Source: Miltoncostaea oceani (lineage in GTDB: Bacteria; Actinomycetota; Thermoleophilia; Miltoncostaeales; Miltoncostaeaceae). Taken from it: DNA of 64,000 nt. The translations under genes and the position numbers were made by a program. The stretch covers positions 1,550,001 to 1,614,000 of the forward strand of contig NZ_CP064356.1 of assembly GCF_018141545.1 (NCBI RefSeq), written 5' to 3'. Under the pieces are notes generated by a model. It ran no database searches, was not told where the DNA came from, and saw nothing but the letters and a program-made list of their open reading frames with translations. Positions 12 to 7,445 of this stretch are shown here, piece by piece; positions within the stretch are counted from its first letter, which is position 1; every line of letters begins with the position of its first letter.

Positions 12-2096
12 TCACGCCGGCGAGACTACCCCCGTCCGCCGGGCGGCGGCCCCGGCGAGGTCGCCGCGCACGACCTCCACGAGGACGGCGGCGACCTGCG
101 GGTCGAACTGGGTGCCGGCGCAGGCGGCGATCTCGGCGAGGGCCGCCCCCGGCGGGATCGCGTCGCGGTAGGGGCGCCGCGGGGAGGTCATGGCCTCGTA
201 CGCGTCGCAGGCGAACACGATGCGCGACGCCCGCGGGATGTCCTCCCCGGCGAGGCCGTCGGGGTACCCGGCCCCGTCCCACCGCTCGTGGCTGGACCGC
301 ACGAGGGCGGCGATCGGGGCGAGGGAGGGTGCGACCCGCAGGATGCGCTCGCCGATGACGGTGTGGCGGCGCACGAAGGCGAGCTCGGCGGCGTCGAGCG
401 GCGCGGGCTTGTCGAGGATGGAGTCGGGGATGGCGACCTTCCCGACGTCGTGGAGGCGCGCCGCCCGCCGGACCTCGCCCCGGGCGGTCTCGCCGAGGCC
501 GAGGCGCCGGGCGACGCGGTCGGCCAGGTCGGCGACGCCGTCGGTGTGCTCCTCCAGGTCGGGGTGGCGCTCGGCGAGCGCGCGGACGAGGACGTCGGCG
601 CTCTGGCTCCCGGCGCTCTGGCGGCCGATCCCCTTGTGGGCGTACATGCGGTGGTCGGCGACGAGCATCGCCGCGTCGGGGGTGGTGGCGTCCACCGGCA
701 GGCGCGCGACGCCGTGGGCGGCCGTGACCTGGAAGCCGTCGCCCCGCTCCCGCAGGGCCTCGTGGACCCGGTCGAGGGTGTCGCCGAGCCGTCCCCCTCC
801 CGGGACCAGCACGCAGAACTCGTCGCCGCCGAGGCGGTAGGCGGCGCCGGGCGCGGCGGCGGCGAGGCGGGCCGAGAGCCGCACCAGCAGCGCGTCGCCG
901 GCGGGGTGGCCGAAGCGGTCGTTGTAGCCCTTGAACCCGTTCAGGTCGAGCATGACGAGGGTGAGGGGCGACCGCTCGCGGGCGGCGGCCGCGAGGTCGC
1001 GCTCGAGCCGCCGCCGGTTGGCGAGCCCGGTGAGGCCGTCGGTGTCGGCCTCGTGCCGCAGGCGGGCCGCCGCCGCGCCGCGCTCGCGGCGGCGCCCGTT
1101 CGCCTGCCCGAACAGCACGGCGAACAGGAGCGCGACGGCGGCGGCGCCGAGGGCGGGCGTCAGGACCGCGGTGGACGTCGCGGCGGGCGCCCCGGGGAGC
1201 GCGACCTTTACGGTCCAGGTGGTCCCGGCGACCCGGGCGACGCCGACCGCGTCGCGGGGGCGACCGGGGCCGATGTCGGCGAGGGTGGTGCCCCGGTCGG
1301 TGATGCGCAGGCCGCCGCCCTCGGGCAGCAGCGCGGCGGCGGGGGCCGCCAGGCCGGTGAGGGGGAAGACCCCGCCGACGTATCCGCCCAGCCCCGACCG
1401 GCGGGCGGCGACCGTCGACGGCGACGGGTCCGGTCCGTACACGGCGGCGAGCAGGGCGACCGCCGTCGGGCGGCCCCGGTCGAGCGACAGCGCGGGGGTG
1501 ACGACGGGCCGGGCCCCGTCGCGCGCCCGCGCCAGCGTCGCCCGCAGGGCCGGCCGGCCGGCGAGGTCGACGCCGAGGCTCCCGCGCGCCGCCGGTGACG
1601 CCGGGGCGGTGAAGGTGAGCGGGAAGTGCTCCCCCCGCGCGGGCGCCGCGGTGATCCGGCCGGAGGCGTCGGGCGCGCGGATCGTGCCGTGGAGGCGCTC
1701 GTACCGGGGGCGGGACGCGGCGGGCACGCGCTCGGCCCAGTTGAGCGAGAGCACCTGCGAGTCGACGAGCTCGACGGCGGCGAACCGGCCGAAGGCTGCG
1801 GCGTCGACCGCCGGCCCCCCGGCGGCGAACAGCCCCCGCGCGGCGGTCAGGTTCGACCCGGCGGCGTCGAGCTCGTCGCGGATCGTCGCCGCCGCGCGCC
1901 CGGCCCACTCCGTGTGGGCGTCGCGGTGGTCGGCACGGGCGTGGGTGGCCACCGCCGCCGACGCGGCCAGGCCGGCTCCCGCGATCGCGACCACGACGAC
2001 CACCTGCAGGGGGCGCAGACGGGCGCCGCCGAGCAGGGCGAGGGGACGTCGGAGCGCCGCGCGGACGCGACGGACCGCCGGGACGGGACCGGGCAT
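12..2096 (-). CDS. CHASE-GGDEF-HD-GYP cyclic-di-GMP signalling protein
   Basis: A 694-residue membrane sensor predicted to make and degrade cyclic-di-GMP. An N-terminal membrane segment (about residues 30-52) is followed by an extracytoplasmic CHASE-like sensor region (about 60-310), a second membrane segment (about 315-335), a GGDEF domain with an intact GGDEF motif at 423-427, and an HD-GYP domain (HD at 549-550 in LHDVGK, then [10 protein letters not shown] near 605-611). The RxxD inhibitory site that normally lies five residues before GGDEF is not seen, so feedback inhibition may be absent. ATG start has a good ribosome site (GGAGG, 7 nt spacing). It is transcribed away from the mutase operon. 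Which activity dominates cannot be told from sequence. Confidence 0.9.
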
Positions 2097-2235: not shown

Positions 2236-3899
<1,664 letters not shown>

Positions 3900-3900
<1 letters not shown>

Positions 3901-4301
3901 TGGACGACGCCCCGCGCATCGTCCTCGCGAAGCTCGGCCTCGACGGCCACGACCGCGGCCTGAAGGTCGTCGCCCGCATCCTCCGCGACGCGGGCATGGA
4001 GGTCGTCTACCTGGGGCTGCGCCAGTCCCCGGAGGGGGTGGCGGGTGTCGCCCAGCAAGAGGACGCCGACGCCGTCGGCATCTCGATGCACAACGCGAGC
4101 CACCTGACGCTGGGCCCCGCGATGGTGGACGCCCTGCGCGCCCTCGGGCTCGCGACGCCGGTCGTCGTCGGCGGCATCGTGCCCCCCGACGACGTGGCGA
4201 CGTTGCGCGCGGCGGGGGTGGCGGAGGTCCTCGGCCCCGGCGCGTCCGCGGTCGAGGTGGCCGCGGCGGTGCGCCGCGCCGTCGCCGCCGCGGCCCCGTG
4301 A
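3900..4301 (+). CDS. Acyl-CoA mutase small subunit, B12-binding
   Basis: Cobalamin-binding subunit of 133 residues that partners the preceding mutase barrel. It has the base-off/His-on signature DxHxxG (Asp15, His17, Gly20 in LDGHDRGLK), a Ser in GISMHNASH and the glycine pair in VVVGG. Length matches stand-alone IcmB-type subunits (about 135 residues). Translation is coupled: its ATG overlaps the upstream TGA, and its own TGA overlaps the GTG of the MeaB gene. Confidence 0.9.
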
Positions 4302-5272
4302 GCGCCCGCGAGGGGGACCCCGCCGTCCTGCTCCGGGCCGCCCGCGACGGCGACCGCGGGGCGCTGGCGCGTCTGATCACGCGCATCGAGCGGGGCGGGG
4401 AGACGGCCGCGGAGGTGGCGGCGCTGCTGCCCGCGGGCGAGGGCGCCGCCCACGTCGTCGGCGTCACCGGGGCGCCGGGGGCCGGCAAGTCGTCCCTGAC
4501 GGGTCACCTCCTGGCGCACCTCGCGGGGGAGGGACTCCGTCCGGCGGTGCTCGCGATCGACCCGTCGTCACCCGTGACGGGCGGTGCGATCCTCGGTGAC
4601 CGGGTCCGCATGGACGGCGTCGCCCCGGGGGCGTTCGTGCGGTCGATGGCGACCCGCGGGCACCAGGGCGGGCTGGCGGCGGCGGTGCCCGCGGCCCTGC
4701 GCCTGCTGGCGCACGCCGGTCACGACCCGGTGATCGTCGAGACGACGGGCGTCGGGCAGGTGGAGGTCGACGTGGTCGCCGCCGCCGACACGACGGTGCT
4801 GGTGGTCGCGCCCGGGTGGGGCGACGCGGTGCAGGCCAACAAGGCGGGGCTGCTGGAGGTCGCCGACGTGCTCGTCGTCAACAAGGCGGACCGCCCGGGG
4901 GCCGCCGACGCCCGCCGCGACCTGGAGCAGATGCTCGACCTCGGCCACATCAGCGGCCTGGAGGCGCGCTCCGGCCGCCGCGCCGGGATCGTGATGGCGA
5001 CGTCGACGACGGGGGAGGGCGCGGCGGAGGTGTGGCGCGCGGTCGCCGCCCACCGGGCGGCGATCGCCGCCGACGGGGAGCTCGACGCCCGCCGGGCGCG
5101 GCGCCGTCGCGGGGAGGTAGTGGCGCTGGTGGGGGTCGCGTTGCGCGCCCGCACCGACGCGGCCCTCGCGGGCGAGGCGGGACGGGCGGCCCTCGCGGAC
5201 GTCGCCGCCGGGCGCATCCCCGCGGATGCCGGTGCGGCGGAGGTGCTGCGGGCGGTCCTCGACGGCGGCTGA
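4298..5272 (+). CDS. meaB: MeaB/ArgK-type G3E GTPase, mutase chaperone
   Basis: GTPase of 324 residues that in characterised systems gates cofactor loading and protects B12-dependent mutases. Visible motifs: Walker A GAPGAGKS (58-65), IDPSSPVTGGAILGDRVRM region (about 88-106), ETTGVGQ switch, and the base-specificity motif NKAD (195-198). GTG start overlaps the stop of the B12-subunit gene by four bases (GTGA), so three mutase genes form one tightly coupled operon. Position beside an IcmA-like mutase suggests service to that enzyme, though it would be annotated as methylmalonyl-CoA mutase associated. Confidence 0.93.
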   Translation: MSAREGDPAVLLRAARDGDRGALARLITRIERGGETAAEVAALLPAGEGAAHVVGVTGAPGAGKSSLTGHLLAHLAGEGLRPAVLAIDPSSPVTGGAILGDRVRMDGVAPGAFVRSMATRGHQGGLAAAVPAALRLLAHAGHDPVIVETTGVGQVEVDVVAAADTTVLVVAPGWGDAVQANKAGLLEVADVLVVNKADRPGAADARRDLEQMLDLGHISGLEARSGRRAGIVMATSTTGEGAAEVWRAVAAHRAAIAADGELDARRARRRRGEVVALVGVALRARTDAALAGEAGRAALADVAAGRIPADAGAAEVLRAVLDGG

Positions 5273-5289: not shown

Positions 5290-5991
5290 TCAGGTCGCCA
5301 GCGTGCTCCCGAAGACCTGCCAGGCGAGGGCCGACTTCGCGGCGAGGCTGAGGACGATGTACGCCCGCTCCGAGAAGAGGTAGTCCCGCCACCGGCCGAC
5401 CCGCCGGTACTGGAGGGCCATGTTCACGGCGAAGCTGTTGAACAGCACGAACAGCGACACGAAGATGGCGTAGACGAACGTCGGCGCGGAGTCGCCGCCG
5501 AAGAGGTAGACGCCGATCGCGATCCACGGCACCGCGCCGGCGACGCACCCGAACCAGTAGGGCGTCCAGTCGGCGCCGGCGTCGGGCGGCTGGCGCTCCA
5601 TCAGCAGTCCGAAGAGGATCATCGCGGCGTTCGCGCCGAAGATCGCGATGAGCGCGGCGGCGTCGGAGATCCCGGTGAGCATCGCGATCAGCACCACCAT
5701 CAGCGACGCGCTGACGGAGTACTCGATCCAGCGGGCGATGTTGCGCCGCCGCCCGAGCTCCCGCTCGTACCAGGCGCGCACCGGCGGGGTCGCCATCAGC
5801 AGGTGGTCGGCGGCGGCGAGGAACAGGAACGCGGCGACGACCGGTGCGAAGCGGACGTCGAACAGCACCTCGAGCTCGCCGGGGCCCTGACCGGGGGGCC
5901 CGCCGAGGAACGACGCGGTGACCGGCGTCGCGAAGTCGTTGGCGAGGGCGAGGATCACGAGCCCCTGCACGAGGTGGGCGAGCCCCACCAC
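5290..5991 (-). CDS. Heliorhodopsin
   Basis: Seven-helix retinal protein of the heliorhodopsin family, 233 residues from the GTG given. Helix 7 has ERAYIVLSLAAKSALAWQVF with the retinal lysine Lys219 in SxxxK; helix 3 has RWIEYSVSAS with counter-ion Glu90; His6 and His63 occupy the positions of His23 and His80 of heliorhodopsin 48C12 (spacing to the Glu is identical). WFGCVAGAVPWI and NSFAVN are also family hallmarks. Homologues carry about 17 more N-terminal residues; the same open frame upstream encodes a fitting cytoplasmic tail from an ATC codon at 6042 (6 nt after CATCCT, a leaderless-like spacing), so the true start may be non-canonical. It lies downstream of an MFS gene on the same strand. 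No retinal-synthesis gene is in the window. Family function is unsettled: no ion pumping, slow photocycle, inverted topology. Confidence 0.95.
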   Translation of the reverse strand: MVGLAHLVQGLVILALANDFATPVTASFLGGPPGQGPGELEVLFDVRFAPVVAAFLFLAAADHLLMATPPVRAWYERELGRRRNIARWIEYSVSASLMVVLIAMLTGISDAAALIAIFGANAAMILFGLLMERQPPDAGADWTPYWFGCVAGAVPWIAIGVYLFGGDSAPTFVYAIFVSLFVLFNSFAVNMALQYRRVGRWRDYLFSERAYIVLSLAAKSALAWQVFGSTLAT

Positions 5992-6100
5992 GAGGTTCAG
6001 GTTGCGCAGGCGGCGCAGCGTCGGTGCGGGGGTCGTCGCGATGCCGGGAGGATGACAGGGCCGCGCTCCCGCGGGCCGGGGGTCGGCGCCCGCCCCCGTT

Positions 6101-7390
6101 TCAGCCCGTGGCGTCGGCGGGGGCCGCGGGCGGATGCACCCACCGGGGGCCGAGGAAGACCACCGAGATCACGGCGGCCAGGAGCCCGACGGCGGCGAAC
6201 CCGGCGGCGCCGAGTACGACGCCGGATCCGAGGCCCCCGGTGGCCCCCGCGAGGCCGACGAGCAGGTCGGCGTTGCCCTGCGCCTGGGGCCGGCGCGCGA
6301 GCGGGACGGCGTCGACGACGAGGGCGCTGCCTGCGACGAGGCAGAGGCTCCAGCCGAGGCCGAGCAGGAACAGGGCGATCGCGAGGACGACGCTGGACGC
6401 CGGGTCGGCGGCGGCGGCGAGCACCCCGGCGGCGGTCAGCGTCACGGCGCCGGCCCGGACGGTCGCCATGCGGCCGACGCGGTCGCAGAGCAGTCCGACG
6501 AGGGGGGAGAAGAGGTACATGCCGGCGATGTGGACGCTGATGACGAGGCCGATGACGGAGAGGCCGTGGTCGTGGGCACGCATGTGCAGCGGCGTCATCG
6601 TCATGACGCCCACCATCACCGTCTGGGCCGCGACCATCGCGCTGACGCCGGTGAGCGCGGGGCCGTGGGACAGCTCCGCCCATCCGCCCCGCCGCGAGGG
6701 GGCCGCGGGCACGGCGGGGCGCGCGGCGGCGTCGATCGCCCGGGCCAGGAGCAGGGGGTCGGGCCGGAGGGCGAGGGCGACCACCGCGGCGGCGGCGCCG
6801 TAGGCGAGGGCCGAGAGGGCGAAGGGGCCGGACAGCACCGGCAGCCCGACGGCGTCGGCGGCGGCGCCGGTCGCGTCGATCAGGTTGGGGCCGGCGACGG
6901 CGCCGAACGTGGTGGCGAAGAGGACGGTGCCGAGCGCCCGGGCGCGGTGGCCGGGCAGCGCCAGGTCGGCCCCGGCGAACCGCGCCATCAGGCTGGAGGT
7001 GTTGCCCGCCCCGAAGAGGACCATCCCGGCGAGCAGCAGCGCGAACGAGCCGATCGCCGCCGCGACCACCACGATGACCGAGCCGGCGGCGCCGAGCAGG
7101 TAGCCGAGGGCCAGCCCGGGGCGGCGGCCGCGGAGGTCGGCGAGCCGCGCGAGGAGCGGCGCGGCGAGGGCGCCGCCGGCGGTGCCGACCGCGACCGGCA
7201 GGCCGGTGAGGCTGTCGCCGTCGAGGAGGTCGCGGGCGAGCAGCGCCCCGACCGCGACACCCGCCGCGAGGCCGACCCCCCCGAGCACCTGCCCGGCGAC
7301 GAGCACGCGCAGGGTGCGCCGCTGGGCGCGCTCACGCTCGTCACCCGTCCCGTCCGGGCCGGTCACGGCGACCGTCGGCCCCGCGCGCAT
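6101..7390 (-). CDS. Major facilitator superfamily transporter
   Basis: Twelve-helix MFS permease, 429 residues. The MFS loop signature is degenerate but visible (LARLADLRGRRPG after helix 2; LLCDRVGRMATVRAG after helix 8). I chose ATG 7390 because a strong purine-rich ribosome site (GAGGGGGG) lies just upstream; an upstream GTG at 7414 is possible. Substrate cannot be predicted. The heliorhodopsin follows on the same strand about 60-110 bases downstream and may be co-transcribed. Confidence 0.85.
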   Translation of the reverse strand: MRAGPTVAVTGPDGTGDERERAQRRTLRVLVAGQVLGGVGLAAGVAVGALLARDLLDGDSLTGLPVAVGTAGGALAAPLLARLADLRGRRPGLALGYLLGAAGSVIVVVAAAIGSFALLLAGMVLFGAGNTSSLMARFAGADLALPGHRARALGTVLFATTFGAVAGPNLIDATGAAADAVGLPVLSGPFALSALAYGAAAAVVALALRPDPLLLARAIDAAARPAVPAAPSRRGGWAELSHGPALTGVSAMVAAQTVMVGVMTMTPLHMRAHDHGLSVIGLVISVHIAGMYLFSPLVGLLCDRVGRMATVRAGAVTLTAAGVLAAAADPASSVVLAIALFLLGLGWSLCLVAGSALVVDAVPLARRPQAQGNADLLVGLAGATGGLGSGVVLGAAGFAAVGLLAAVISVVFLGPRWVHPPAAPADATG

Positions 7391-7445
7391 CCCCGTCCCC
7401 CCTCGCTCGGCCACGGGCCCGGGGGCGTCCGTGCCCAGAACGACG

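Follow-up and report, generated by a model that had tools for sequence, protein, structure and literature searches.

The ten partner groups that have been named for heliorhodopsins do not include MFS transporters (PMC11109279). Leaderless initiation has been dissected with reporters in mycobacteria, where the 5' end must carry an ATG or GTG and ATC serves as the initiation-incompetent control; combined with a Shine-Dalgarno sequence, ATC gives activity there that is low but above background (PMC4633059). More widely, AUC is a rare bacterial start codon (PMC9094748).

The heliorhodopsin gene analyzed here lies directly behind an MFS transporter gene in a 64,000-nucleotide stretch (the window) of the Miltoncostaea oceani genome, which comprises 4.54 Mb in 3 contigs and has an estimated completeness of 100%. 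Among the papers searched, none treats heliorhodopsin in this genus. That the gene is missing a canonical start codon is well documented by the data below; the ATC found in the expected position is an unproven candidate only.

Table 1. Features of the heliorhodopsin locus (positions in the window)
Feature	Position	Strand	Remarks
Heliorhodopsin coding frame, read from ATC	5290..6042	-	250 aa plus stop; PF18761, NF038020; 48C12 is the best sequence and fold match
MFS transporter, upstream, same strand	6101..7414	-	PF07690, 90.9 bits; stop lies 58 nt before ATC
MeaB GTPase, convergent, 17 nt from heliorhodopsin stop	4298..5272	+	PF03308, 244.5 bits; TIGR00750, 264.7 bits
CATCCT, weak -10-like hexamer, 6 nt before ATC	6049..6054	-	One mismatch to TAnnnT
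ATC at expected start position, residue 1	6040..6042	-	From sequence; gives His23 numbering
CTG, residue 9, alternative near-cognate start	6016..6018	-	From sequence; other near-cognates at 6009 and 6000; neither 6018 nor 6009 has a Shine-Dalgarno match
GTG GTG, earliest RTG codons in frame (residues 18-19)	5986..5991	-	Within predicted helix 1 (residues 6-34); no Shine-Dalgarno match
His23	5974..5976	-	Invariant in alignment; conservation of at least 95% across 91 further heliorhodopsins
His80	5803..5805	-	Invariant in alignment; conserved in 91 others
Glu107, counter-ion (RWIEYS)	5722..5724	-	Same number as in 48C12; invariant in alignment; conserved in 91 others
Lys236, retinal lysine in helix 7, SLAAK (SxxxK), S232-L-A-A-K236	5335..5337	-	Conserved in 91 others

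The heliorhodopsin and its conservation

The frame at 5290-6042 (-) is open, with the coordinates and strand given in a preliminary description of this DNA, and profile searches bear out the identity proposed there. The translation scores 323.8 bits against the Pfam Heliorhodopsin model PF18761 (cut-off 26.7; model positions 1-242 of 242 covered) and 304.8 bits against the NCBIfam HeR model NF038020 (cut-off 100; positions 1-244 of 244 covered), and residues 7-248 align to 48C12, the nearest solved heliorhodopsin, and its relatives. The alignment shows that His23, His80, Arg104, Glu107, Ser232 and Lys236 are all kept. The retinal lysine, the glutamate counter-ion and the two histidines are therefore in place, as had been claimed, with His23, His80 and Glu107 numbered as in 48C12. 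The lysine is residue 236 rather than 241 because the loop before helix 6 is five residues shorter than in 48C12. A structure predicted from 11 relatives has seven helices in the heliorhodopsin fold (mean pLDDT 69, moderate confidence), and all 10 PDB entries that match this model at E <= 0.001 are heliorhodopsins. The N-terminus is inferred to be cytoplasmic, giving the protein an inverted topology; the charge bias agrees with this assignment, with 15 Lys/Arg residues in the N-terminus and intracellular loops against 1 in the extracellular loops when helix limits are set by hand. Judged by its sequence, 5290-6042 (-) is a genuine, undegraded heliorhodopsin that is ordinary apart from its start codon.

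The gene is patchily distributed among its relatives. Heliorhodopsin matches are present in 25 of 42 genomes of the order, covering 7 of 12 genera. Within the genus the gene is intact in the genome G021, carries a 14-nt deletion in G020 and is absent from G019 (99% complete), and so looks labile. The G020 deletion (L031:6706-7429) follows SVMV relative to G021 and is either a real disruption or an error in the metagenome-assembled genome.

No sign of relaxed selection was seen. None of the 45 positions that are at least 95% conserved in the 91 other heliorhodopsins is changed in the window protein. Ranking the protein among these 91 is biased, since the GTDB loci were chosen by similarity to the window query, and the fair comparison is with the intact G021 ortholog, which deviates at 6 of 83 conserved columns against 3 of 83 in the window protein. 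The dN/dS ratio of the window gene relative to G021 is 0.34, close to the 0.33 of a flavin reductase pair. Given this lack of decay in the protein, any start loss would be recent and any silencing very recent, unless the gene remains in use.

The start region

No ATG, GTG or TTG is present between the MFS stop (6101) and GTG 5991 in any frame. GTG 5991, previously noted as the nearest GTG, is indeed the first RTG codon. In 92 heliorhodopsin frames we took the His23 codon as the reference point and listed the in-frame starts upstream of it, counted from 14 codons up. An ATG, GTG or TTG lies 14-45 codons before His23 in 91 of these frames, mostly at a distance of ~20-26 codons; the window gene alone has none, which makes its missing start more than a matter of chance. 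The same-genus heliorhodopsin genes start with GTG. The preliminary description had pointed to ATC 6042, and the sequence agrees both with the His23 numbering that this codon gives and with the placing of CATCCT 6 nt upstream.

The hexamer stands at the distance seen for leaderless genes of this genome. A TAnnnT motif 6-7 nt before candidate start codons was seen 23 times in 478 kb of the window's genome, against ~0.3 expected from internal start codons, and a gap of 6 is the modal spacing of its leaderless genes. The score of CATCCT is equalled by ~1% of random genome positions, or ~3.6% when gaps of 5-8 are allowed, and TGTCAT, 9 nt before ATC, scores slightly higher. The hexamer at leaderless spacing is thus supportive of a promoter at this site, but not strongly so. 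Similar arrangements recur across the family: TAnnnT stands 5-8 nt ahead of a candidate start in 9 of 20 heliorhodopsin genes from relatives in the order and in 19 of 70 others, compared with 6 of 1137 internal start codons, suggesting that leaderless transcripts may be common among heliorhodopsins. The loci concerned are L007, L009, L011-L013, L015 and L018-L020, together with 19 GTDB heliorhodopsin loci. In the same-genus orthologs the hexamers ahead of the GTG are CATGCT, at a gap of 6, and CACACT, at a gap of 7.

Codon composition changes close to the ATC. A codon model trained on the window's genome gives -0.64 per codon over the 17 codons that precede ATC and +0.35 over the 17 that follow it, and the other two frames in this region score strongly negative. 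The first eight codons after ATC are about neutral, so that the firm claim is for coding as far back as codon 9 at the least. Two residues that lie before GTG 5991, Leu12 and Asn16, belong to the positions with at least 95% conservation among the 91 other heliorhodopsins and are kept in the window gene. Together, the leaderless -10 spacing and the nearby onset of coding make it most likely that ATC 6042 stands where a start codon is to be expected.

Of the five candidate starts examined, not one shows a Shine-Dalgarno match, while coding onsets average -5.3 kcal/mol. RNA folding around the start is unremarkable (z +1.8 and +0.4). The 58-nt stretch ahead of ATC shows no similarity above dinucleotide shuffles to the heliorhodopsin upstream regions of G020 and G021, leaving an inherited promoter unsupported. 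Neither does it beat the shuffles in comparisons with the MFS 3' flanks of G019, G020 and G021, and no insertion boundary could be traced.

We consider it probable that an intact heliorhodopsin, at a locus unlike that of its same-genus relatives, has lost its canonical start and is made at or next to ATC 6042 at a low level or not at all. Ancestrally, a -10 box would have stood 6-7 nt upstream of an ATG or GTG that was also the 5' end of the transcript, yielding a leaderless mRNA. This RTG start would then have been lost in the window's genome, where its position is now occupied by ATC behind a weakened -10 (CATCCT). Any protein still produced would begin at or beside the ATC, in small amounts or perhaps none. 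We count against this explanation the absence of decay in the protein, the weakness of the -10 and the dissimilarity of the upstream region.

The alternative that survives best, although we regard it as doubtful, is that a leaderless mRNA is in fact translated from ATC 6042 as a physiological start, perhaps as a means of keeping heliorhodopsin low. As far as position is concerned, the earlier proposal of ATC as a non-canonical start holds up: the leaderless spacing is exact, the N-terminus has the usual length, and the coding signal of a fully conserved protein begins there. The rare use of AUC as a bacterial start (PMC9094748) and its low activity with a Shine-Dalgarno sequence in mycobacteria (PMC4633059) also speak for it. 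Initiation from the ATC, however, fares less well. Coding onsets with a leaderless signature were counted under a strict filter in 1.28 Mb of genome stretches (the window stretches plus L166 and L168-L227), giving 46 ATG and 32 GTG but no ATC, CTG or TTG; the scattered other codons at leaderless spacing mostly precede an RTG by a few codons. With no ATC against these 78 ATG/GTG onsets, ATC should be a poor initiator. The candidate also has no Shine-Dalgarno match, and by analogy with mycobacteria, which need a 5'-end ATG or GTG and in which ATC is the negative control, and given the rarity of AUC starts, expression from it should be low or nil. We think it unlikely that this is a native actinobacterial gene in which AUC initiation at a leaderless 5' end, against the ATG/GTG rule, holds a photoreceptor at low abundance.

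Translation from the internal GTG 5991 (or from CTG 6018/6009) into a shortened protein is improbable. This GTG is the only RTG-type start, would be the expected choice of annotation software and retains His23, at position 6. Nevertheless, it has no Shine-Dalgarno sequence, lies inside predicted helix 1 and would discard the three arginines that the N-terminal cytoplasmic stretch contains, along with the conserved Leu12 and Asn16, while codons 9-17, which it also excludes, keep a coding signal. No other heliorhodopsin has a candidate start so near His23 in our census, which counts from 14 codons up.

An assembly or base-calling error at or near the start, hiding an ATG or GTG in the real gene, is more improbable still. 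It would bring the gene into line with its relatives, all of which have a canonical start, and ATC is one base from ATG. On the other hand, the error would have to be a base substitution at precisely the start codon, in an assembly of 3 contigs whose completeness is estimated at 100%; there being no ATG, GTG or TTG in any frame from 6101 to 5991, a single indel could supply no start. A +1 frameshift at the stop codon of the MFS gene (GGC TGA A), which would join the two products in a single fused protein, can be dismissed on codon composition, since, although the two frames differ by +1, the heliorhodopsin frame stays open for 42 codons back into the MFS gene and both joined termini would presumably be cytoplasmic, the linker codons are non-coding in composition (-0.64 per codon), there is no recognizable slippery sequence and the MFS ortholog does not adjoin heliorhodopsin in relatives.

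Genomic neighborhood and retinal supply

The MFS gene lies upstream of the heliorhodopsin on the same strand, as the preliminary description had it, and reaches no specific NCBIfam subfamily at cut-off in profile searches. It is conserved in the genus at 74-80% identity, but its orthologs in G019, G020 and G021 are followed by other genes and lie away from heliorhodopsin, and tblastn found no MFS relative beside heliorhodopsin at 77 other loci. The pairing is private to the window's genome. It is therefore not conserved in relatives, a check that had been suggested earlier, and the idea that the MFS neighbor might hint at the biology of the heliorhodopsin is unsupported. A Pfam census of 67 downstream and 56 upstream neighboring ORFs, called mechanically, revealed no dominant partner, and MFS_1 is not listed among the families that occur at least twice, singletons being dropped from that list. 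Scanning the heliorhodopsin loci of the same genus for Rfam families and tRNAs gave no matches.

The gene directly after heliorhodopsin in G021 and G020, on the same strand, encodes a flavin reductase (PF01613; L030:3429-4715, L031:6172-7429), which belongs to none of the ten partner groups in PMC11109279. The flavin reductase gene of the window's genome and the alpha/beta hydrolase genes near it are 530 kb from the heliorhodopsin, in a block without a heliorhodopsin gene; G019 has the same block, likewise without one. Either the heliorhodopsin gene has moved or two separate acquisitions placed it at the two sites. The window protein is 79% identical to that of G021, a level that other orthologs also show, which favors a move. 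The flavin reductase pairing, found in two same-genus genomes, is a better partner lead than the MFS gene, though it is broken in the window's genome.

On the other side of the heliorhodopsin, 2238-5272 encodes large and B12-binding subunits of methylmalonyl-CoA mutase, recognized by eye, followed by MeaB, which alone was confirmed by HMM. The same-genus genomes have only a MeaB paralog (44-47% identity), and a second MeaB of the window's genome lies at C1:1206680. A GGDEF and HD-domain protein, also recognized by eye, is encoded at 12-2096 (-), ~3.2 kb downstream of the heliorhodopsin stop; a relative in G020 is on the same contig as the G020 heliorhodopsin.

The earlier observation that no retinal synthesis gene lies nearby extends to the genome as a whole, in which searches found no match to a BCD/Blh or RPE65-type oxygenase. 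The only two squalene/phytoene synthase-type genes form a tandem pair that passes the HpnC and HpnD cut-offs, and no separate phytoene synthase was recognized in the genome. With neither a retinal-forming oxygenase nor a separate phytoene synthase, retinal is probably imported. The genome also has no match to a type-1 rhodopsin. Across the order, a BCD-type retinal-forming oxygenase is present in just one of 42 genomes, G026 (G026:C106:38765-39610, L130), with a phytoene synthase-type gene close by, as well as a fragment of a type-1 rhodopsin.

If made, the protein would be expected to have its N-terminus in the cytoplasm and to bind retinal, presumably taken up from outside, on Lys236 with Glu107 as counter-ion. 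Judging from the family (see PMC8612252, PMC9529153, PMC11109279), it is likely to act through light-driven isomerization of this retinal, with a slow photocycle and signaling to a partner in the cytoplasm. The conformational change would be relayed without ion pumping, in keeping with a putative sensory role.

Significance and comparison with known systems

As a heliorhodopsin, the window protein is one more member of its family. The value of the locus is that it offers a clean natural test of start-codon rules, having no ordinary start in any frame, an undegraded protein and an ATC in the position expected of a leaderless start. Production of the protein would mean that leaderless AUC initiation occurs naturally in Actinomycetota; otherwise the locus is a textbook case of start-loss, affecting a gene that looks labile within its genus. 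In addition, the leaderless promoter spacing seen in many heliorhodopsin genes should help to correct annotated N-termini.

Compared with 48C12 (PDB 6su3, 6su4, 6uh3), the window protein aligns over its full length and is ~48% identical in the structural match. The two share His23, His80, Glu107, the SxxxK lysine, seven helices and, by prediction, a concentration of Lys/Arg on the cytoplasmic side; what sets the window heliorhodopsin apart, besides the shorter loop before helix 6, is that its gene has no canonical start codon. Like the operons that link heliorhodopsins to partners such as glutamine synthetase, photolyase, TerC, ABC transporters and others (PMC11109279, PMC9529153, PMC9769723), the window gene has a co-directional upstream neighbor, but this MFS gene is outside the groups of PMC11109279 and the pairing is unconserved even within the genus. 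The start region resembles that of the leaderless genes of Actinomycetota as described in mycobacteria (PMC4633059, PMC3898074), with a candidate -10 hexamer ~6-7 nt before the putative first codon and no Shine-Dalgarno match, although the box is one mismatch off and, where the mycobacterial genes need ATG or GTG, the window gene has ATC.
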